Assembly (NCBI GenBank): GCA_016744335.1
Contig: JADGEO010000009.1
Location: forward strand, 1-64,000
Source: Anaerolineales bacterium
GTDB lineage: Bacteria > Chloroflexota > Anaerolineae > Anaerolineales > Villigracilaceae
Direction: 5' to 3'
Length of the DNA: 64,000 bases
The position numbers were made by a program, and so were the translations under genes. Of this stretch, positions 11,262-29,066 are shown one piece after another; the first letter of the stretch is position 1, and each line of letters begins with the position of its first letter. Below the pieces are notes generated by a model. It searched no databases, was not told the origin of the DNA, and saw only the letters and a program-made list of their open reading frames with translations.

Positions 11262-11400
11262 ATAGCGGCGATTGATATGAATGACAACATTACCATCATT
11301 CATATCGAAATCAAAGCGAGTAAGCAAAAGAGCATTTCATTTACAAAATCCGCTCTGGTTTCGATACGCCAAAAAGCATCAGCTACTCAACCGCCGCTAG
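11262..11400. repeat. Palindromic repeat R1, copy 2 (between mvhG and mvhA)
   Basis: The left half (AGCGGCGATTGA near 11262-11275 and ATATCGAAATCAAAGCG near 11303-11320) pairs imperfectly with the right half (CGCTCTGGTTTCGATACG at 11351-11368 and CTACTCAACCGCCGCTAG at 11383-11400). It matches the R1 copy at 9580-9695. A reading frame running through it into mvhA is a by-product; the real mvhA start lies downstream. Confidence 0.65.
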
Positions 11401-11429
11401 CACAAAAACACTCCCCAACGGAGGAACCC

Positions 11430-12899
11430 ATGTCACAACGAATCACTATTGATCCCATCACCAGATTAGAAGGTCACGGAAAAATTGAAATTTTTCTTGA
11501 CGATGAAGGCGATGTAGCCAACACTTATTTCCAAATTCCCGAACTACGCGGATTTGAACGTTTTTGCATAGGTCGCCCTGTGGAGGAGATGCCCTTACTC
11601 ACCAACCGAATTTGTGGCGTTTGCCCAGAAGCACATCACATGGCGGCCGCTAAAGCCGCTGATGCCGCCTATCAGGTTGACCCACCCTCCGCCGCAAAGA
11701 AATTGCGCGAATTGCTCTATATGGCATTCTATTGCACCGACCATACCACCCATTTTTACGCTTTGGGCGGTCCCGATTTTGTAATGGGACCCGATGCCCC
11801 AGTCGCCGAGCGCAACATCTTGGGCGTAATCCACAAAGTTGGCATAGATGTGGGCAAGCAAGTCATCCAAATGCGAAAATATGGGCACGAAGTCATCGAA
11901 ATGATCGGCGGACGAAAAGTACATCCCTGCACCGCCATCCCCGGCGGGCTAACCAAGGGAATCACGGAGGAGCAGCGCGTAGAAATCGAAAAAATGGGAC
12001 ATTGGGCAATAGACTTTGCTCAATTTAGCCTAAATCTCTTCAACGATGTAGTCCTCAGTAACCCCGATTATCTCGACCTCATCATTGGCGATATTTACAC
12101 CCACGAAACCTACTATATGGGCATGGTAGATGAGAATAATCATGTCAATTTTTATGATGGCAAAATTAGAGTTGTAGACCCCGAAGGAAAAGAATATATT
12201 AAATATGCCCCGCATGAATATCTCGACCATATCGCAGAGCATGTTGAACCGTGGACATATCTAAAATTCCCCTATCTCAAAAATATAGGCTGGAAAGGTT
12301 TCGTAGATGGCAAAGATTCGGGCATTTATATGGCAACACCGCTCTCCCGTCTCAACGCCGCCGAGAGTATGGCAACACCCTTAGCGCAAGAACATTACGA
12401 AAAGATGTATGAAACATTGGGCGGCAAACCCGTTCACCAACGCCTCGCAACCCATTGGGCGCGTCTGATCGAACTTCTCTACGCCGCGGAGCATTGGGTA
12501 GAGTTGGCAACTGACCCAGAAATTACCTCACCCGATATTCACACAGTCCCCACCGCTATCCCCACCGAGGGCATCGGCATAGTCGAAGCCCCACGCGGCA
12601 CGCTCACGCACCACTATAAAACTGATGAACGTGGCATTCTCACCGATGTCAATCTGGTTGTCGGCACGACCAATAATTACGCACCAATCAGCATGTCGAT
12701 CAATAAAGCCGCCAGTAGCCTAATCAAAAAAGGCACAGTCGTCACTGAAGGCTTGCTCAATATGATCGAAATGGCATTCCGTTCCTACGACCCCTGTTTC
12801 GGATGCGCCACACACTCCCTCCCCGGGCAAATGCCAATGGAAGTAACCATCCGAGATGCAAATGGTGAAAAAGTTGACGTTTTGAAGCAGTATTATTGA
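11430..12899 (+). CDS. mvhA: [NiFe] hydrogenase large subunit, group 3c (MvhA-like)
   Basis: The start at 11430 (MSQRITIDPITRLEGHGK) follows GAGG and gives 489 residues. The Ni-Fe ligands are present: the L1 motif RICGVCPEAHH with C62/C65, and the L2 motif DPCFGCATH with C456/C459. About 27 residues follow the L2 His, the tail expected to be cleaved after Ni insertion by the protease encoded next. The CO/CN ligands would be made by the Hyp proteins encoded in the facing operon. The frame continues upstream to 11277 only through repeat DNA. With mvhD, mvhG and hdrABC it should form a soluble H2-oxidising, ferredoxin-reducing bifurcating complex. Confidence 0.94.
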   Translation: MSQRITIDPITRLEGHGKIEIFLDDEGDVANTYFQIPELRGFERFCIGRPVEEMPLLTNRICGVCPEAHHMAAAKAADAAYQVDPPSAAKKLRELLYMAFYCTDHTTHFYALGGPDFVMGPDAPVAERNILGVIHKVGIDVGKQVIQMRKYGHEVIEMIGGRKVHPCTAIPGGLTKGITEEQRVEIEKMGHWAIDFAQFSLNLFNDVVLSNPDYLDLIIGDIYTHETYYMGMVDENNHVNFYDGKIRVVDPEGKEYIKYAPHEYLDHIAEHVEPWTYLKFPYLKNIGWKGFVDGKDSGIYMATPLSRLNAAESMATPLAQEHYEKMYETLGGKPVHQRLATHWARLIELLYAAEHWVELATDPEITSPDIHTVPTAIPTEGIGIVEAPRGTLTHHYKTDERGILTDVNLVVGTTNNYAPISMSINKAASSLIKKGTVVTEGLLNMIEMAFRSYDPCFGCATHSLPGQMPMEVTIRDANGEKVDVLKQYY

Positions 12900-12902
12900 A
12901 GC

Positions 12903-12932
12903 ATAGGAGCGCAACATGCTGTGCCCCTACTG
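12903..12932. repeat. Decayed copy of palindromic repeat R2
   Basis: The segment ATAGGAGCGCAACATGCTG, continuing to TGCCCCTAC, aligns with the perfect 40-bp palindrome at 16887-16926 inside hypF, with several substitutions. It occupies the short gap between mvhA and the protease gene, so an upstream in-frame ATG at 12921 is unlikely to be the real protease start. Confidence 0.5.
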
Positions 12933-12941
12933 CATATACCT

Positions 12942-13409
12942 ATGACAAAAACCCTCATCATCGGACTAGGCAACCCCATTCTCGGAGACGACGGTGTCGG
13001 CTGGGTTGTGGCAGATGCGCTCAAAGAAAAGGGGGTAAAAGAAGAAATCATTCGACTTTCTTTGGGCGGATTAAGCCTCATGGAGCGAATCAGCGGCTAC
13101 GAACGTGTCATTCTCATAGATGCCATGCAGACTGGACAACATCCGATTGGCACCGTCAGCGTATTCCCCATAACGGACCTCCCCAACCCCTTTAGCGGAC
13201 ATTCCGCCTCCGCCCATGACACCAGCTTGCTCACCGCACTGGACACAGGTCACCGGTTGGATATTCCTCTGCCCACGAATAAAAACATCACCATCGTTGC
13301 CATCGAAGCAGAAAACATCTACAGTTTTTCGGAAGAGTTATCGGAGAAGGTTGAAGAAGCAGTGGATGTTGCAGTGGGGGAAGTGCTAAGGATATTGAAA
13401 AACATTTGA
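12942..13409 (+). CDS. Hydrogenase maturation endopeptidase for the Mvh-type enzyme
   Basis: From MTKTLIIGLGNPILGDDG the protein has about 155 residues. The N-terminal GxGNxxxxDDGVG signature with its metal-binding Asp, the central VILIDAMQ segment and the SAHDTSLLTAL region with conserved His are typical of the HybD/HycI/FrcD protease family. These proteases bind Ni in the precursor and remove the C-terminal tail of the large subunit. Position directly after mvhA indicates that this is its dedicated protease, while a different paralogue (19316-19801) serves the Isp-type hydrogenase. No strong Shine-Dalgarno is visible. Confidence 0.88.
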   Translation: MTKTLIIGLGNPILGDDGVGWVVADALKEKGVKEEIIRLSLGGLSLMERISGYERVILIDAMQTGQHPIGTVSVFPITDLPNPFSGHSASAHDTSLLTALDTGHRLDIPLPTNKNITIVAIEAENIYSFSEELSEKVEEAVDVAVGEVLRILKNI

Positions 13410-17541: not shown

Positions 17542-18207
17542 TTATTTCTTATTGGCTTCGACTTCGGCAACAATCCAATTGACCCATTCGTCTACGCCTT
17601 CGCTGGTAGCGCAGGAAATTGAAAAGGTGACAAGCTCGGCGTTGAGGACTTCGACACCTTTGCGGAAGTAATCCATTTTGAAGGGGATGTAGGGGAGAAG
17701 GTCGACTTTGTTGATGATGAGGGCATCTACGCCACGATACATGCCTGGATATTTATAGGGTTTATCGTCGCCTTCGGGGACGGATGCCACGAGGACGCTT
17801 TTATGTGTGCCAAGCACGAAATTGGCGGGGCAGACGAGGTTGCCGACATTTTCAACAAGGAGGAGATCAATTTCAGAGAAATCAATTTCTTCCATACCTT
17901 TTTGGAGCATAACGGCATCGAGGTGACAGTTTCCGCCTGTGTTGACCTGAACGGCTACGTCTGCGCCAGCTTCGGCAGCGCGGTCTGCATCTATGCTGGT
18001 GGCGATGTCGCCATCAATCACTGCAATGCGATAGCGTTCTGCCAACTTAGGCAAAGTCTGCTCGATAAGCGAGGTTTTGCCTGCGCCAGGGGATGCCATC
18101 AGGTTGATGGCGTATACGCCGTGTTCGTCAAGAAGAGCACGGTTTTTTTCGGCGAGGGTTTCGTTTGCGCCGAGAATCTTTTCTACTACAGGAATTTTTT
18201 TCGTCAT
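17542..18207 (-). CDS. hypB: Hydrogenase nickel-incorporation GTPase HypB
   Basis: The 221-residue GTPase delivers Ni to the large subunit together with HypA. Visible motifs: P-loop ASPGAGKTSL (about 38-47), DGDIATSIDADRA, the nickel/zinc-site GGNCHLDA (C94, H95), LLLVENVGNLVCPANF with a further metal-ligand Cys, and NKVDLLPY (G4). It lacks the N-terminal His-rich storage stretch seen in some HypBs. It lies 36 bp before hypF, separated by a small hairpin (17513-17538). Confidence 0.95.
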   Translation of the reverse strand: MTKKIPVVEKILGANETLAEKNRALLDEHGVYAINLMASPGAGKTSLIEQTLPKLAERYRIAVIDGDIATSIDADRAAEAGADVAVQVNTGGNCHLDAVMLQKGMEEIDFSEIDLLLVENVGNLVCPANFVLGTHKSVLVASVPEGDDKPYKYPGMYRGVDALIINKVDLLPYIPFKMDYFRKGVEVLNAELVTFSISCATSEGVDEWVNWIVAEVEANKK

Positions 18208-20438: not shown

Positions 20439-22181
20439 TTAGCTCAAACAAACATTAAGCCCGCCAGCTTGAACTTCGCCGAGGTCTTTTCCATCTGCAT
20501 CAACCATGTGAATGGCGCAAGCCATACAAGGATCAAAGGAGTGGATTGTGCGCAAAATTTCGAGAGGCCACTCTGGTTTTGCAAGAGGTGTATTAACAAG
20601 GGACATCTCATAAGCGCCAGCCTGTTCATTATGGTCGCGCGGGGAGGCGTTCCACGTTGTGGGGACAACCATTTGGTAATTATCAATCTTCTTATCTTTG
20701 ATAACAATCCAGTGACCGAGCGCACCACGCGGGGCTTCCATATAGCCAAAGCCTTTTGCTTCTTTGGGCCAAGTATTTGGCTCCCATTTGGTCTCGTTGA
20801 AAGTGCGGGTATCGCCTTCTTTAATAGTTGCGATAAGTTCGTTATAGGTTTCAAGCATATGGTCTGCGAAAACCTTTGTCTCAAGAGCACGGGCGGCAGT
20901 ACGTCCCAGCGTAGAGAAAAGTGCTTCAACAGGCGCACCAAGTGTGGTCAACGTATAATCGACCAATTCTTTGGTCTGTGCATGACCTTTTGCGTACATC
21001 ATCAACACACGGGCAAGGGGTCCTACTTCCATAGGCGCATCATTCCAGCGTGGAGCTTTGAGCCATGAATACTTTTGCTCTACTTCAAGATGCTCGTAAG
21101 GAGGTTGCGGACCTGTGAAATTAAATTTAGTCTCGCCTTCCCACGGGTGCAAACCTTCTTTATCACCAACACTCTGTTCGTACCATGAGTGCGCCACAAA
21201 TTCTTTCATTTTATCGAAATCATTCGGGTCTGGTTCGATGATATTACTTAAGTCGCGGTTCATGATAACACCACGAGGTACTAAGAATTTTGAAGTATCG
21301 CTATTATCCGTTCCAGGGAATTCACCCCAAGAAAGGAAGTTGCCAAGACCTTCGCCAATTGCCGCATAATCGAGATAATAGGGCGCGATTGCCAGCAAAT
21401 CGGGGATATAAACTTGGTCTACAAACTCAATCATACGGTCAATTGAGTCTTTAATGATGCCCAAACGCTCTGAGTTAAGTGCGGCATCTGAATTCAAGTC
21501 AATGGGGAAAGGAACGCCACCAACAACAAAGTTAGGATGCGGATTCTTGCCACCAAAGATGGTGTGAATTTTAGTGAATGTACGCTGTGCATCGAGGGCT
21601 TCAAGGTAATGCGCCACGCCCAAAAGATTGATTTCAGGTGGGAGCTTATATGCGGGGTGTCCCCAATAAGCATTTGCAAAAATGGAGAGTTGTCCACTGT
21701 CTACAATAGCTTGGACTTTTTTCTGCACATCGGCAAAATAGCCTGGGGATGATTTTCCCCATTTGGAGATAGATTGTTGAATACGGGACGTTTCGTTGGG
21801 GTCAGCTTGGAGCGCGTTAACCACATCTACCCAATCCAAAGCGTGGAGGTGATAAAAGTGCATTACATGATCGTGCACATATTGCTGAGCAATCATCAAG
21901 TTACGGATTAGATTTGCCGCTTTCGGGATTTGAATATCAAGCGCATCTTCAACTGAGCGGATAGATGCAAAAGAATGTACTGTTGTACAAACGCCACAAG
22001 TTCGCTGGGTAAATGCCCAAGCCTCACGAGGGTCACGCCCCTGCAAGATAATTTCGATACCGCGCACCATCGTGCCAGATGAGTAGGATTTCGTGATTTT
22101 ATTATCGGCATCCAACTCCGCTTCAACACGTAAATGACCTTCAATACGCGTAATCGGGTCTACTACAATTCGTTCTGCCAT
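20439..22181 (-). CDS. hynL: [NiFe] hydrogenase large subunit, group 1 Isp-type
   Basis: The 580-residue subunit has L1 RTCGVCTTVHS (C62/C65) and L2 DPCMACAIH (C552/C555), the four Cys ligands of the Ni-Fe centre. About 22 residues follow the last His and would be cut off by the protease encoded two genes later. Overall length and the N-terminal VVDPITRIEGHLRVE match group 1 (membrane-bound) enzymes. The gene order small subunit-isp1-isp2-large subunit is diagnostic of the Isp-type (group 1e) hydrogenase known from Thiocapsa and Aquifex relatives. Confidence 0.94.
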   Translation of the reverse strand: MAERIVVDPITRIEGHLRVEAELDADNKITKSYSSGTMVRGIEIILQGRDPREAWAFTQRTCGVCTTVHSFASIRSVEDALDIQIPKAANLIRNLMIAQQYVHDHVMHFYHLHALDWVDVVNALQADPNETSRIQQSISKWGKSSPGYFADVQKKVQAIVDSGQLSIFANAYWGHPAYKLPPEINLLGVAHYLEALDAQRTFTKIHTIFGGKNPHPNFVVGGVPFPIDLNSDAALNSERLGIIKDSIDRMIEFVDQVYIPDLLAIAPYYLDYAAIGEGLGNFLSWGEFPGTDNSDTSKFLVPRGVIMNRDLSNIIEPDPNDFDKMKEFVAHSWYEQSVGDKEGLHPWEGETKFNFTGPQPPYEHLEVEQKYSWLKAPRWNDAPMEVGPLARVLMMYAKGHAQTKELVDYTLTTLGAPVEALFSTLGRTAARALETKVFADHMLETYNELIATIKEGDTRTFNETKWEPNTWPKEAKGFGYMEAPRGALGHWIVIKDKKIDNYQMVVPTTWNASPRDHNEQAGAYEMSLVNTPLAKPEWPLEILRTIHSFDPCMACAIHMVDADGKDLGEVQAGGLNVCLS

Positions 22182-22192
22182 AAGTTACTCCT

Positions 22193-23461
22193 CTAATTTA
22201 GAACCAAAGCATCAGCAACCATCTCAATTAAGCCTTTGACTTCAACATCTTCTACGTTATAGAAGCCAAGACCTTCTTTGAGTTGTAACTGGCAATTATT
22301 ACAGGTGCTAACAACCACATCTGCATCAACTTCTTCTACTTCATCAAGCTTAAGCTTGAAAGCCGCCATGCGGTTGTCAAAGGCTTCAGGGATAGCGCGT
22401 AAACCACCGCCACCACCACAACACAGCCCTTCTTCACGATTCGATGCCAATTCCTTAAAGGAATTATCACCAACCAGAAGTTTCAACGCTGTGCGTGGCT
22501 CATCCATGATACCACCAGCGCGTTGAATTTTACATGAGTCATGGAAAGTGTAGGTCTTGCCATCATCATATTTGCTGGCATCAACTTTTATCTTTCCATC
22601 GTCAATTAGTTTTGGCAAAAATTCGGCGATATGTGTAACTTCAAAGGGAAGTGCTTCGCCAAAGATATTGGGCATATTATCGCGAAGGGCAACGAAACCG
22701 TGCCCACATTCGGTAACAAGAATTTTCTTGACACCTAGATTCTTTGCCGCATCATAAATACGACCAAGCAATTTCTTTTGCAACTTTCCGTTGCCAACAA
22801 TAGTGCCCATATTAAAAGCATCACGCGCTTCGAGACTTGTTGTCCAGGAAACACCGCCAGCCTCAAGCACTTGCGCTAAGCTATAGAGATTACTCTTCTT
22901 ACCTGTAATCTCCAAACTTGTAAAGACGACTAAAACATCTGCGCCCTTAACATCAACTGGTACCTTGATCCCAACTTCTTTTTCTGCTGAGGCGAACCAA
23001 TCTGCATAAGCTTCTGGTCCATCACCATTGGGGCTGCCAAATTCATCTTGTGCTTTGGCTTTGTCCATTAAGCCTTTTGGGGTATATCCAGCTGCAGTTA
23101 CTCCAGCTCGAACAGTACCAATCAGTTTATTTATTTCTATGCCCATAGGGCAGACCGCAGCACATTTACCACACATAGAGCAAGCGTTAAAATCGATCAG
23201 GCTCCAATCTCGAACATCTTCATCACTAATTGCTTTATTGAAACCAAGAGCTGTCTTGACTTTTCCAACCAGCGTATAGCGTTGCTGATAAGCACGGCTC
23301 AAAAGCTCTACTTTCCAGATGGGGGTGTAGTCAGGGTTGCCCGTGGAGAGATAATAGGGGCAAGCTTCTGCACATATGCCACAGCGAGTGCAAGCTTCCA
23401 GTTGGCTAGCTGCCCAGCCACCGGTTTTCTTTATAAATACGTCCATTGTTTTATCAGTCAT
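22193..23461 (-). CDS. isp2: Isp2: HdrD-like iron-sulfur protein of the Isp-type hydrogenase
   Basis: This 422-residue protein has two ferredoxin-type clusters (C24-C34, CTRCGICAEACP; C94-C104, CSMCGKCAAVCP). The C-terminal half shows one full CCG domain (CCGGGGG...STCNNCQ) and a degenerate one around TECGHGFVALRD, in which the double Cys is not kept. This is the HdrD/GlpC architecture of Isp2, which is thought to connect the cytochrome b Isp1 with a cytoplasmic electron partner. Short spacing (9 and 11 bp) to its neighbours shows co-transcription. Confidence 0.9.
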   Translation of the reverse strand: MTDKTMDVFIKKTGGWAASQLEACTRCGICAEACPYYLSTGNPDYTPIWKVELLSRAYQQRYTLVGKVKTALGFNKAISDEDVRDWSLIDFNACSMCGKCAAVCPMGIEINKLIGTVRAGVTAAGYTPKGLMDKAKAQDEFGSPNGDGPEAYADWFASAEKEVGIKVPVDVKGADVLVVFTSLEITGKKSNLYSLAQVLEAGGVSWTTSLEARDAFNMGTIVGNGKLQKKLLGRIYDAAKNLGVKKILVTECGHGFVALRDNMPNIFGEALPFEVTHIAEFLPKLIDDGKIKVDASKYDDGKTYTFHDSCKIQRAGGIMDEPRTALKLLVGDNSFKELASNREEGLCCGGGGGLRAIPEAFDNRMAAFKLKLDEVEEVDADVVVSTCNNCQLQLKEGLGFYNVEDVEVKGLIEMVADALVLN

Positions 23462-23470
23462 CTCATTCTC

Positions 23471-24148
23471 CTATGGCATCGTGCCACGTTTGCCCCACTC
23501 TACGCCATGAATTGTGCGTGAGAAGAAGTAAAAGACAAAGTGGGAAATTCGGCTCAGCGGAATCCAAATCAGTAAAATATTAATCGAGACCATGTGCAAA
23601 GCAAACAGATTTTCGTATGGCAAGAACATATGATGTGTCATCATATAGCCAGTAACCATTGGCACAAAAACCAAGAACCAATTAAAAAATTCGGCTGCGC
23701 CAGAGAGACGCTTGAGCACAGGGTGATTTAAGCGATTGATGAGCAGCATAACCATAGCAATAATGCCAACTGCGGCCATAAAATCTACGATGGGAAGTGG
23801 GAGAGTCCACCAGCCGAAGCCGAGTAAGCTCTTCCAGGCGAGCATGTGTGCAGCACCCAAGATAACGACAATAAAGAGACTAAGGTGAAATAATCCGCCA
23901 GCAAGATAGGTGATAGGGTTATTCACAAAAGCTTTTTTCTCACGGGGGAAAAATGGAAGGATCAAGCCTCCACGCAGGAAGGATTTCACGACACCGAGAC
24001 CTTTACTGCCGCGCGGTTTCGATAAGTCTTTACTCCATCCAAGAAAGATTACATTTGCTATGCGGTAGAGCATTCCCGCAATGAAGAAGGTTATCGCGAC
24101 ATTGAAGAAGGGACCACGGGCAAAAGCGAGCATTGCTTGTGGATTCAT
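23471..24148 (-). CDS. isp1: Isp1: NarI-like cytochrome b membrane subunit
   Basis: The 225-residue protein has about five membrane helices (around 10-32, 75-98, 115-135, 145-170 and 185-205). Conserved His residues fall in or near helices (GGLFHLSL, GAAHMLAW, MMTHHMF, LHMVSIN), as needed to bind two b-type haems. It resembles the NarI/DsrM family of quinone-reactive cytochromes. As Isp1 it would link the periplasmic hydrogenase to quinone and to Isp2. The start overlaps the small-subunit stop (ATGA). Confidence 0.9.
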   Translation of the reverse strand: MNPQAMLAFARGPFFNVAITFFIAGMLYRIANVIFLGWSKDLSKPRGSKGLGVVKSFLRGGLILPFFPREKKAFVNNPITYLAGGLFHLSLFIVVILGAAHMLAWKSLLGFGWWTLPLPIVDFMAAVGIIAMVMLLINRLNHPVLKRLSGAAEFFNWFLVFVPMVTGYMMTHHMFLPYENLFALHMVSINILLIWIPLSRISHFVFYFFSRTIHGVEWGKRGTMP

Positions 24149-25248
24149 TTTTTATTCTCCTTTTTTGCTTTTGCTGTGGCTGCCATGCCCGCACCAATTG
24201 CGAGACCAGCGGCACCAGCAACGCCAGCGGTTGTCATACTAGGTTTCTGCAAGGGGGCAGATTGACCCTGATAGAAGCCGCCACCGTCCCAGAAATCTGG
24301 TTCGGAACAACCCAAGCAGGGGTGGTTAGATTGCACAGGGAAGGATAAGCCAGAATCCCAGCGAATGGATGCGCAAGCGTTATAGGTTGTGGGTCCTTTA
24401 CAGCCAAGTTTATAGAGGCACCAACCTTCTCGTGCGCCTTCATCGTCAAAAGTCAGAGCAAATTTACCCGCTTCGTAGAAGGGGCGGCGTAAACAACGAT
24501 CGTGAACTGTTTTGCCGTAGAATGCCATTGGACGATTAAGTTTGTCTAACTCTGGCAATACGCCAAAGAGAGCAAAGTGAGTGATTACAGCAACAAAAGC
24601 TTCGGGAATAGGGGGGCAACCGGGGATATTTACAACTGGTTTATCTGTTATTAAATCCGTTACACTGGCTGCAGTGGTGGGGTTAGGCGAAGCCTTTGGC
24701 AAACCGCCAAAAGATGAGCAGTTGCCGATAGCAATAATTGCGGCGGCTTTCTCAGCGGCTTCCTTCAAAATCACTTCGGCTGTTCGACCACCTATCGCAC
24801 AATAAGCAGCGTGCTCGCCCGTTGGAATGGAGCCTTCTACAACCAGAACATATTGCCCTGCGTATTTTTCCATTGCCTGTTGCTTGGCTTCTTCAATCTG
24901 AAAGCCTGCGGCGGCAGAGAGTGCCTCGTGATGCTCAATCGTGAGCGTATCAAGCACCAAACTCCCCAATGTAGGGGCATTTGCGCGGGTGAGTGCTTCA
25001 CTGCACCCTGTACAATCTTGGAATTCAAGCCAAATTACAGGTAAGCGGGGTTGAGTTTCCATTGCTTTGGCAACATGATCGATTGATTTCTTCTCAACAT
25101 GATTAAGTGTGGCGGGCAAACCACTTGCTTCTAGCGGGGGCATTGAGGTCATTCCCATTGCGCCAACAGCTAGTCCACACATTTTCAGAAAATCTCGTCG
25201 AGAAACTCCTTCGTCTTTCATATGACCATAAATTGAATCATCTGTCAT
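24145..25248 (-). CDS. hynS: [NiFe] hydrogenase small subunit with Tat signal, Isp-type
   Basis: An N-terminal Tat signal (SRRDFLKMCGLAVGAMG, R17-R18) targets the folded enzyme across the membrane. The proximal cluster motif is CTGCSEA (C79/C82). Further cluster ligands are visible in GNCSSFGG, IPGCPPIPE, the C-terminal HDRCLRRPFYE and LGCKGPTTYNAC, and HPCLGCSEPDFWD. The C-terminus has an Ala/Gly-rich helix (AGVAGAAGLAIGAGMAA) and then Lys-rich residues, a likely membrane anchor. GAGGAG precedes the start. It is the first gene of the operon; the PocR-domain regulator ends 139 bp upstream. Confidence 0.94.
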   Translation of the reverse strand: MTDDSIYGHMKDEGVSRRDFLKMCGLAVGAMGMTSMPPLEASGLPATLNHVEKKSIDHVAKAMETQPRLPVIWLEFQDCTGCSEALTRANAPTLGSLVLDTLTIEHHEALSAAAGFQIEEAKQQAMEKYAGQYVLVVEGSIPTGEHAAYCAIGGRTAEVILKEAAEKAAAIIAIGNCSSFGGLPKASPNPTTAASVTDLITDKPVVNIPGCPPIPEAFVAVITHFALFGVLPELDKLNRPMAFYGKTVHDRCLRRPFYEAGKFALTFDDEGAREGWCLYKLGCKGPTTYNACASIRWDSGLSFPVQSNHPCLGCSEPDFWDGGGFYQGQSAPLQKPSMTTAGVAGAAGLAIGAGMAATAKAKKENKK

Positions 25249-26262: not shown

Positions 26263-26297
26263 AAAAAAGAGACTTGATTATCTCAAGTCTCTTTTTT
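26263..26297. terminator. Intrinsic terminator downstream of the selenoprotein gene
   Basis: AAAAAAGAGACTTGA (26263-26277) and TCAAGTCTCTTTTTT (26283-26297) form a perfect 15-bp stem with a 5-nt loop. On the minus strand it follows the stop of the deiodinase-like gene at 26315 and precedes the PocR-regulator promoter region. Confidence 0.85.
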
Positions 26298-26314: not shown

Positions 26315-26926
26315 CTATTCAGCTAAATAACGCTCAATCTCTTCCTCTAATTTGGATGGATGGAAGTCGTAGGGACCCAGCCCAGCGGCGTAGACAACGA
26401 CCCCATCTGTGTCGATTAGGTATAGGCGGGTGGGCCAACCAGCATAGGATTTGTTGACTGCGTCATCCATCTCGTCAATATAAGTTCTAACGCCATAGGA
26501 TAGGGAAGCTTCGCACGTGCTCGCAACTTGCCTCCGTTCATCCATCGTTTGCGGGTCGTAAACATCCATAGCCACTTTGGGAGAAAAGATTTTCATTAGT
26601 TTCTTGGTGAAAAAGTTGCCGCCAAACCACCACCCATCTACGGGATGCGCTTCGCGGATATAGATGGGAATAAACTTCACGCGCTCGTGGTATTTTGCGT
26701 AAATATCGGTGAGACTTACAGTCCCTTTTACATAAGGCGGTCAGGTAAAACTGCCAAAGATGAGGGCAACAGGCTCTTTTTTGCGAAAATCTGATAAACG
26801 CAGGGGGTTCTGCCCTTTTGCATCGCGCAAGCTAAAATCAGGGGCGATATCGCCCACTTTTGGGGCTTGCGAATCGTATTTCTTTTGCCATCCCGTTGCT
26901 GTTTTGCGGTTTTTTATCATCGCCAT
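26315..26926 (-). CDS. Deiodinase-like thioredoxin-fold selenoprotein (in-frame TGA = candidate Sec62)
   Basis: Two adjacent reading frames are in the same frame, separated by one TGA (26741-26743). Read through it, they give a single 203-residue protein of the T4_deiodinase/thioredoxin-like family: APDFSLRDAKG near residue 28, then FGSFT-U-PPY (Sec at 62), KFIPIYIREAHPVDGWW, DPQTMDERRQVA, TYIDEMDDAVNKSY and WPTRLYLIDTDG. Family homologues have Cys or Sec exactly here (GSxTC/U-PPF). Right after the TGA, GGGACT-GTA-AGTCTC (26725-26711) folds as a bacterial SECIS-like hairpin with G first in the loop. It follows the phosphofructokinase gene by 2 bp. The bacterial family is presumed a thiol/selenol redox enzyme; iodothyronine is not an expected substrate. 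A nonsense mutation is the alternative. Confidence 0.85.
26711..26725 (-). promoter_or_regulatory. Candidate bacterial SECIS hairpin
   Basis: On the minus strand, GGGACT pairs with AGTCTC (one G-T) around a GTA loop. The stem begins 15 nt after the TGA and its apical loop starts 22 nt after it, inside the spacing bacterial SelB-binding elements use. The first loop base is G, as required in the general bSECIS pattern. The stem is short, so confidence rests mainly on the protein context. Confidence 0.6.
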
Positions 26927-26928
26927 CC

Positions 26929-28125
26929 TTATAATTCACTGGTCATAATAAAGAGAGGCTTCATTTCAAAACTTTCATAATTTGGGCGGTAGCGGTCGGT
27001 ATTATAGAATTGATCTACATTAACGAGTTTTTTGCGACTGGTGATTATTTCGATAGGAACATTATCATAGCGTCCATTTTTCAAGACGACCAAACGACCG
27101 TGTAAGCCTTTTAGTATCAGATCAAGAGCTAGGTTTCCGAAAGCCATCGGGACGATTGAATCGATGGCATCGGGGTCGCCGCCGCGCACCATATAGCCTA
27201 GTTTTTGATGTACGGTGCTAATTGTTTTTCCCTTATTAAATTGTGGAGAGAGTGCTTTTACCTCTTCAGAAACTAAATCGCCAATGCCGCCTAGTTTTGC
27301 GTGTCCGTAAGCATCGGTTGTGCGGTCTTTGAAGATCATTTCTCCCCCTTTAAACATGGAACCTTCTGAGATGAGGGCTATGGCATAGTGACTGGGATTA
27401 TCTCTGCGATCTTTAGAGAGTAGCTCTGTTAGTTGGGCTATATCAAATTCATATTCGGGGATTACGCAACGATTTGCCGCACCTGCCATCGTGGGGAGCA
27501 AGGCGGTGAAGCCGGCATAACGCCCGAAAACTTCAAGAATAAGGAAACGCTCATGTGAGCCGGCTACGGTACGCAGGTTGTTGGTGAGTGCAATGGTGCG
27601 TGTAACGCAGGTGCTAAAACCAATGCAATAATCTGTGCCGGGCACATCGTTATCCATTGTTTTAGGAATAGCGACTACTTTTACACCTTCTTGATATAGA
27701 CGCACACCGTAGCTGAGGGTATCGTCACCCCCGATGGGGATAAGGTAATCTACGCCAAGAAACTCTAGATTTTTGAGCACTTCTTCGGTGAGGTCATTCA
27801 TATCATCTGTATATATTTCTTTAAGATGTTCAGGGACAGCCGTTTTTTTTACTCGACTTGGCTTGGTGCGTGATGAGTGTAAAAATGTCCCCCCTGTGCG
27901 CCCTGCTCTATCTACAATTTTTCGTGAGAGTACTCTATAGTTATTGCTATTGTCTACTTTTTTATCACGAATAATTTCGACCATGCCCGCCCAACCACGC
28001 CGAATACCAATGACTTCATACCCCTCGCGCAAGGCACGAATAGTGACTGCTCGTATAGCAGGGTTTAGCCCAGGCACGTCTCCCCCACCTGTTAAGATTG
28101 CGATTACACCTTTTTTTGTAGCCAT
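26929..28125 (-). CDS. pfp: Phosphofructokinase, PPi-dependent type by active-site residues
   Basis: The 398-residue protein has the PFK core LTGGGDVPGLNPAIRA, IPIGGDDTLSYG (D134-D135) and VAIPKTMDNDVPGTD (K155, D158). ATP-dependent PFKs have GGDG and PGTIDND at these two places. The Asp after GGD and the Lys before the catalytic TxDND are the established marks of PPi-dependent enzymes, so this is likely a reversible PPi-PFK for glycolysis and gluconeogenesis. AAGGAG precedes the start, and a TATAAT lies at 28190-28195 upstream. It probably shares a transcript with the selenoprotein gene. Confidence 0.88.
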   Translation of the reverse strand: MATKKGVIAILTGGGDVPGLNPAIRAVTIRALREGYEVIGIRRGWAGMVEIIRDKKVDNSNNYRVLSRKIVDRAGRTGGTFLHSSRTKPSRVKKTAVPEHLKEIYTDDMNDLTEEVLKNLEFLGVDYLIPIGGDDTLSYGVRLYQEGVKVVAIPKTMDNDVPGTDYCIGFSTCVTRTIALTNNLRTVAGSHERFLILEVFGRYAGFTALLPTMAGAANRCVIPEYEFDIAQLTELLSKDRRDNPSHYAIALISEGSMFKGGEMIFKDRTTDAYGHAKLGGIGDLVSEEVKALSPQFNKGKTISTVHQKLGYMVRGGDPDAIDSIVPMAFGNLALDLILKGLHGRLVVLKNGRYDNVPIEIITSRKKLVNVDQFYNTDRYRPNYESFEMKPLFIMTSEL

Positions 28126-28190: not shown

Positions 28191-29066
28191 TTATACCCTT
28201 CCCCTTTTACTGCGTGCCCACCAGCCTTCACCCCAAAAAAGGAGGAGGGCGACCCAAATAATACTAAACCCGATGGCTTGTGAACGTGTGAACTCTTCTT
28301 TATAGACCATTACGCCAATAAGAAATTGGATTGTTGGTGCTATATATTGCATTAGTCCTATGGTAGAAAGGGGGATGCGGTGTGCGGCTTTGGCAAAAAG
28401 AAGCAGGGGGATAGAAGTCACTGCTCCCGCACCAACAAGATAGGCAGATGTTTTGAAATCACCTTGTAGAAATACGCCTGTTCCGGTGGAAGCAAGATAA
28501 AGTAGATAGCCCAAAGCAGGAATAAAAATAATACCCGTTTCTAAGGTTAAGCCATAGAGTGAGCCGAGCATAGATTTTTTCTTAAATAACCCGTAAAAAC
28601 CGAAGCTAAAAGCAAGGATTAGGGCTATCCACGGGAGACGGCCATAAACGAAGGTGAGGTAGAGAACGCCGATAGTTGCTAATCCCAGCGGAAGCCATTG
28701 AAAAGGACGCAATCTTTCGCCGAAGAAAATCATGCCAAGAAAGACACTAAGAAGAGGATTGATGAAATACCCCAAGCTACTTTCAATAATATAGCCATTA
28801 TTGACCGCCCAAACATAGGTGAGCCAATTAATGCCGAGGAGCAGTGCGGCAACGCCATGTGCACGAAGTGTTTTCGGGTTTAGCTGTGCGCGAAAATCAT
28901 TTTTTCTACGTGTAAAGAGAATGATGCTGAAAAGCATAAGAAAAGACCACAAAATTCGATGGGCTATAACTTGCTCTGCTGAAATATGCTGTAGTTGTTT
29001 CCAGTAGAGAGGAAATACACCCCATAAAATATAGGTGCCAAGCGCGTAAAGGATGCCAGAGTTCAT
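28191..29066 (-). CDS. rarD: EamA/DMT-family transporter, RarD type
   Basis: The 291-residue protein has ten hydrophobic helices in two EamA halves. The start GILYALGTYILWGVFPLYWK, then EQVIAHRILWSF, and the middle GYIIESSLGYFINPLLSV are specific marks of the RarD subfamily. It is an inner-membrane transporter of unknown substrate; the old chloramphenicol-sensitivity name is not functional evidence. It lies upstream of the PFK gene on the same strand, but a TATAAT at the gene junction suggests separate transcription. Confidence 0.9.
   Translation of the reverse strand: MNSGILYALGTYILWGVFPLYWKQLQHISAEQVIAHRILWSFLMLFSIILFTRRKNDFRAQLNPKTLRAHGVAALLLGINWLTYVWAVNNGYIIESSLGYFINPLLSVFLGMIFFGERLRPFQWLPLGLATIGVLYLTFVYGRLPWIALILAFSFGFYGLFKKKSMLGSLYGLTLETGIIFIPALGYLLYLASTGTGVFLQGDFKTSAYLVGAGAVTSIPLLLFAKAAHRIPLSTIGLMQYIAPTIQFLIGVMVYKEEFTRSQAIGFSIIWVALLLFWGEGWWARSKRGRV

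Follow-up and report, generated by a model that had tools for sequence, protein, structure and literature searches.

Deiodinase-like selenoproteins of bacteria were first described in 2005 from the Sargasso Sea, where both selenocysteine (Sec) and Cys forms were found together with bacterial SECIS elements (PMC1088965). The GOS count of 2008 gave 22 deiodinase-like sequences (PMC2398784), and reviews up to 2026 continue to list these proteins, with their function still open (PMC9312934, PMC13188914). The published bacterial forms belong to PF00837, encode their active-site Sec by a TGA in frame with a SECIS-like hairpin just downstream of it, and have Cys homologs, all of which they have in common with the gene considered here. 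In the animal enzymes, the proton relay of Dio2 consists of Ser127, Thr129, Tyr157, Glu160, and His162, and loop D has been tied to substrate choice (PMC11592359).

A stretch of 64,000 nucleotides from an Anaerolineales bacterium (the window) contains a frame at 26926-26315 that is almost certainly a Sec-decoded gene of this bacterial deiodinase-like (PF00837) family. The features to which the text refers are as follows.

26315 to 26920, minus strand: deiodinase-like selenoprotein gene as predicted, 201 residues, with Sec at residue 60.
26741 to 26743, minus strand: TGA predicted to be decoded as Sec.
26711 to 26725, minus strand: SECIS-like hairpin GGGAC(U)-GUA-(A)GUCUC, 15 nt past the TGA.
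26263 to 26297, minus strand: terminator-like hairpin directly past the TAG, near-symmetric and with T runs on both strands (z -6.5, pattern scan).
26929 to 28125, minus strand: phosphofructokinase gene, pfk (PF00365, 2.2e-67).
28191 to 29066, minus strand: EamA/RarD-type transporter gene, the third member of a rarD-pfk-dio gene order.

The minus strand from 26926 to 26315 is one frame, which is broken only by the TGA at 26743-26741 and has no other in-frame stop. The initial annotation had described two minus-strand frames (26741-26926 and 26315-26740) in one phase with a single TGA between them, and these coordinates are confirmed, as is the motif, which reads GSFT-[TGA]-PPY at this site and GSxT-(C/U)-PPF in the family. 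When counted from the ATG at 26926, the read-through product has 203 residues, begins MAMIKNRK, and reads ALIFGSFT-[TGA]-PPYVKG around the site; 141 sense codons lie 3' of the TGA and are followed by a TAG stop at 26317-26315. On this count the Sec had been numbered 62. The Sec reading is supported by the evidence given below, but the number is probably 60, since the ATG at 26920 would be the likelier start: an AAGG(A) sequence stands at a fitting distance upstream of it and abuts the ATG at 26926. The starts of the nearest relatives vary, and the choice between the two ATGs is therefore uncertain. Residue numbers below count from the ATG at 26920 (Sec60; 201 residues). Because a strong terminator-like hairpin comes soon after the TAG, the gene unit seems to end with the read-through product and not at the TGA.

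The selenoprotein frame starts 2 bases after the pfk stop, and the two genes are probably co-transcribed. A pfk gene also adjoins the homolog in L025-L028 and L035, and the rarD-pfk-dio order is kept in the nearest clade; in two loci that were looked at, hydrogenase or hyp genes come after it. A conserved partner gene was rejected, since the neighbors differ outside the nearest clade in the loci examined. A phage or plasmid origin was likewise set aside: no phage or viral-contig match was obtained, and there was one distant plasmid match at 24% identity. Elsewhere in the window, one set of NiFe hydrogenase genes at 11262-13406 (plus strand) comprises a large-subunit-like gene with hycI following in frame, and a second NiFe hydrogenase set at 20439-25248 (minus strand), which adjoins a PocR-domain regulator, encodes the small and large subunits together with a membrane protein and an Fe-S protein that has a CCG domain. 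Two further frames in the window that contain one TGA were rejected as Sec genes: the frame at 17620 (plus strand) appears, from its sequence, to run opposite a HypB-like gene, and the frame at 12897 (plus strand) is the hydrogenase gene followed by the in-frame hycI gene.

The read-through product matches the Pfam T4_deiodinase family (PF00837) with 81.2 bits against a cut-off of 27 (E 9.3e-23). Its best sequence relatives in the PDB are mouse Dio3 (1.1e-16) and Dio2 (2.8e-10), with thioredoxin-family and ResA proteins far behind. A structure model built on 72 homologs has a mean pLDDT of 90.8, and the solved folds nearest to it are Dio2 (Z 21.3, rmsd 2.9, 175 aligned) and Dio3 (Z 20.1, rmsd 2.5, 168 aligned), followed by the peroxiredoxin AhpE (Z 17) and ResA (Z 16). 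The family call of the initial annotation is upheld by both sequence and fold. A related but longer family, NCBIfam NF038285 (deiodinase_rel), has 347 positions; the product matches profile positions 174-340 (1.6e-52) and lacks the further N-terminal part, and with 179.1 bits from the C-terminal half only, it falls below the full-length cut-off of 250. Six homologs from Planctomycetota (L063, L074, L084, L086, L087, and L092) have 186-451 open codons before the TGA, compared with about 65-70 here, and these long frames may include an N-terminal part fused on in the manner of NF038285.

A name such as "deiodinase-like" does not imply deiodinase activity. The favored functional reading, whose likelihood is put a little short of even, is that of a Sec peroxidase or another thiol-dependent reductase that works with a Sec60-Cys136 pair. 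Peroxiredoxins (AhpE, BCP/PrxQ, Tpx) and ResA-type thiol-disulfide oxidoreductases have the thioredoxin-like core in common with the product (Z 14.7-17.2), and AhpE and ResA provide the next nearest folds after the deiodinases. As in peroxiredoxins, a Ser stands three residues ahead of the redox residue; in addition, Arg165 is invariant, on a strand which, from the motif, we take to be the one carrying the active-site Arg of peroxiredoxins. Cys136 is the sole cysteine of the product, is a Cys in 61 of the 72 homologs, and lies one place further on in 6 more; it is a candidate resolving partner of the oxidized selenium. However, the peroxiredoxin motif PxxxT/SxxC is found only in part, with Ser57 and Sec60 present and Leu53 at the place of the Pro, and the Tpx profile gives a weak match that stops short of the Cys136 region. 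The product also differs from both peroxiredoxins and ResA in having no CxxC and in carrying the deiodinase blocks instead.

It is a less likely prospect that this Sec enzyme acts as animal deiodinases do, by reductive removal of iodide or bromide from a halogenated aromatic. Such a role would agree with Dio3 and Dio2 being closest, in both sequence and fold, among the solved structures and with the retention of the Dio2 relay (PMC11592359), whose residues map to Ser57, Thr59, Tyr87, Glu90, and His92 of the product; the Ser, Tyr, Glu, and His are present in 72/72 homologs and the Thr in 70/72. Yet the second relay His (Dio2 His182, Dio3 His219) is absent, Pro123 being aligned with it and a Pro being found there in 71/72 homologs, and Leu181 occupies the place of the thyronine-clamp Arg275 (or Lys241). 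Phe58 and Val144 stand where Dio3 has Cys168 and Cys239, respectively. In favor of this role, loop D, the element linked to substrate choice in the animal enzymes (PMC11592359), is enlarged here by an insertion, WWFGGNFFTKKLMKIFSPKVAMD (window 26560-26626, minus strand, residues about 100-119), which occurs only in part of the clade and is modeled, at lower confidence, as two short helices. Against it, thyroid hormone is not expected in the host, and in the loci examined no neighboring gene points to halogen metabolism. In a small branch from Chloroflexota (L022, L054, and L056), U-T-V-F replaces U-P-P-F after the Sec, which is unusual so near to the active site.

Taken together, a role as a peroxide-type or another thiol reductase is favored over dehalogenation with modest confidence. 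As to the substrate, peroxide is a possibility that falls somewhat below an even chance, a halogenated compound is rather improbable, and the remainder goes to another reductase role. The product is predicted to have a thioredoxin/peroxiredoxin fold in which, according to the model, Sec lies at the start of the core's first long helix with the relay residues Ser57, Thr59, Tyr87, Glu90, and His92 nearby. In the likely reaction the selenolate would make a reductive attack, with a peroxide as the most probable target and a carbon-halogen bond as a less probable one, after which the oxidized selenium would be resolved by Cys136 and then recycled by a cellular thiol system.

Among the homologs that have the site, 82 of 84 carry TGA, and the other two carry TGC (Cys); these 84 genes come from a genome-collection scan and a phylum search and include a few near-copies from both collections, so loci are counted and not species. 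The scan contributed 80 loci, which are distributed over Chloroflexota, Latescibacterota, Poribacteria, Planctomycetota, Acidobacteriota, and other phyla. Close relatives with neither Cys nor Sec at this position had been named as an observation that would speak against Sec; every relative that has the position carries either TGA or Cys. The claim that bacterial deiodinase-like proteins occur with Cys or Sec at this place is likewise borne out, both by the literature (PMC1088965) and by the 82 TGA and 2 TGC forms counted here, numbers which also indicate that the family strongly prefers selenium. The two TGC genes (L065 and L072) are sisters from one Opitutaceae bin and are nested among TGA forms on the homolog tree, which needs only a single change. 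Within the phylum, a homolog was present at E <= 1e-15 in 6 of 400 genomes (the host included), with exactly one TGA in 6/6, and in 298 genomes of the class there was no match above the PF00837 cut-off with an uninterrupted frame.

Constraint on the coding sequence is as strong past the TGA as ahead of it. In four near relatives, dN is about 0.06-0.14 and dS about 0.7-1.8, before and after the TGA alike; L028, which seems to be out of register through an indel, was left out of this comparison. The earlier description of these 141 codons as intact and conserved in character is therefore correct, dN being far below dS there.

A hairpin in the RNA follows the TGA. The initial annotation had placed a stem GGGACT/AGTCTC with a loop GTA 15 nt past the TGA, and the stem and its position hold and are supported by covariation. 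In 28 distinct sequences of the clade, 86.9% of the hairpin pair cells are paired, as opposed to 27-51% in slid registers. Changes on both sides are seen at 3/6 hairpin pairs (A-U/G-C, G-C/C-G, and G-C/U-A), and cells with such changes number 17, compared with 4.3 +/- 3.4 in shuffles (0/500). RNAalifold recovers the same stem unaided, and the GU in the loop is invariant, so that the small apical loop contains the G that bacterial SECIS elements require; one hairpin pair is broken in L025 and L026. The shared loop, however, probably has 5 nt and not the 3 first proposed, because conservation does not extend to the innermost U-A pair. When the 33 nt past the TGA were compared with synonymous recodings of the same peptide, the mean z over 83 genes was -1.34, indicating more stability than expected, whereas eight other stretches of those genes gave z values of -0.04 to -0.32 in the same test. 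This excess is a property of the family: the host copy's hairpin (-5.9 kcal/mol) is by itself unremarkable, with z -0.62 and 27% of recodings folding as well. The two Cys genes, L065 and L072, show little structure past the codon beyond the coding need (z -0.57 and -0.33). In other clades, as judged by eye, a hairpin is present whose sequence differs and whose register is sometimes shifted, which suggests that it is the structure rather than the peptide that is kept.

These findings bear on the alternative that a nonsense mutation or a sequencing error produced the TGA, the locus being a pseudogene or a pair of fragments. Decayed relatives do exist, such as L057, which lacks the Sec stretch and has two stops, and decayed matches with 3 TGA and 1 TAA (G626) or with a TAG (G656), but the same TGA in 82/84 homologs from many phyla and assemblies, the strong constraint past it in near relatives, the absence of any other stop in the frame, and the covarying hairpin make this explanation very improbable for the present gene. 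At the level of the family it is rejected, as both the TGA and the codons past it are conserved, and the recurrence of the TGA in many independent assemblies speaks against a read error. L057 (L057:5004-5486, Chloroflexi Bse_26) may reflect lineage decay or a faulty assembly. Another homolog, L031 (L031:5001-5567, Chloroflexi bin.164), has a second in-frame TGA at the position where relatives have the latter Trp of DGWW, which may result from a read error, from decay, or from recoding at a second site.

The host genome (3.62 Mb, 95.8% complete) encodes the machinery for Sec. A tRNA-Sec with anticodon TCA scores 65 bits, and selA, selB, selD, and the tRNA-Sec are all above curated cut-offs; a search for selA, selB, selC, and selD had been proposed as a check, and all four are present. 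In addition, selD (C46:69115-70047, L017) and the formate dehydrogenase alpha gene (C42:43377-45530, L116) of the host each have one in-frame TGA and are likely further selenoproteins, so the Sec system appears to be in use. Co-occurrence with tRNA-Sec was dropped as proof, since a strong match is found in most of the sampled genomes of the Anaerolineae class and is by itself weak evidence. Four of the 14 genomes with the gene have no strong tRNA-Sec match, and all four are bins that are 79-86% complete. The idea that the host uses another genetic code, in which TGA stands for an ordinary amino acid and selenium plays no part, would also account for one frame open across a TGA, but it is rejected as very improbable, because Cys is the sole alternative at the site, the Sec machinery is complete, and TGA still terminates genes in the window, such as the hydrogenase gene at 12897.

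We infer, then, that Sec is inserted at residue 60. With the hairpin 15 nt downstream as their guide, SelB and Sec-tRNA would insert Sec60 at the UGA at 26743-26741 in place of termination; without selenium, the product would be a 59-residue stub.

For the host copy alone, the outcome is one corrected gene model. Such genes tend to be truncated or missed by automatic annotation, and consequently Chloroflexota and their relatives probably hold more of this enzyme line than has been reported. The family has retained most of the residues that serve catalysis in animal deiodinases, making it a good system in which to ask about deiodinase-type roles without thyroid hormone. A tentative and rather doubtful proposal is that the clade, which includes Chloroflexota, Latescibacterota, Poribacteria, and others, forms a separate line of enzymes, nearly all of them dependent on Sec, with most of the animal relay, its own Sec60-Cys136 pair, and in part an enlarged loop D, and that it reduces a perhaps halogenated substrate.

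How, then, does the gene compare with known systems? The animal deiodinases (Dio2, PDB 9h48; Dio3, PDB 4tr3) have the same fold, a GSxT-U-PPF-type motif, and a YIxEAHPxDGW block; however, they are only 22-29% identical to the bacterial product over the aligned core, they have a membrane anchor segment that the bacterial product lacks, and their SECIS is in the 3' UTR, whereas the bacterial hairpin here lies inside the coding region. In the literature searched, no description of a Chloroflexota form of the deiodinase-like selenoproteins was found. The reviews of the bacterial forms give a UxxC motif (PMC9312934, PMC13188914), whereas the clade here, compared by description, has U-P-P-Y/F followed by V and no Cys at that place. 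By the same kind of comparison, it differs from the published bacterial forms in its single distant Cys136 and, in part, its enlarged loop D. With these differences, the gene is a well-supported further member of the bacterial deiodinase-like selenoproteins known since 2005.
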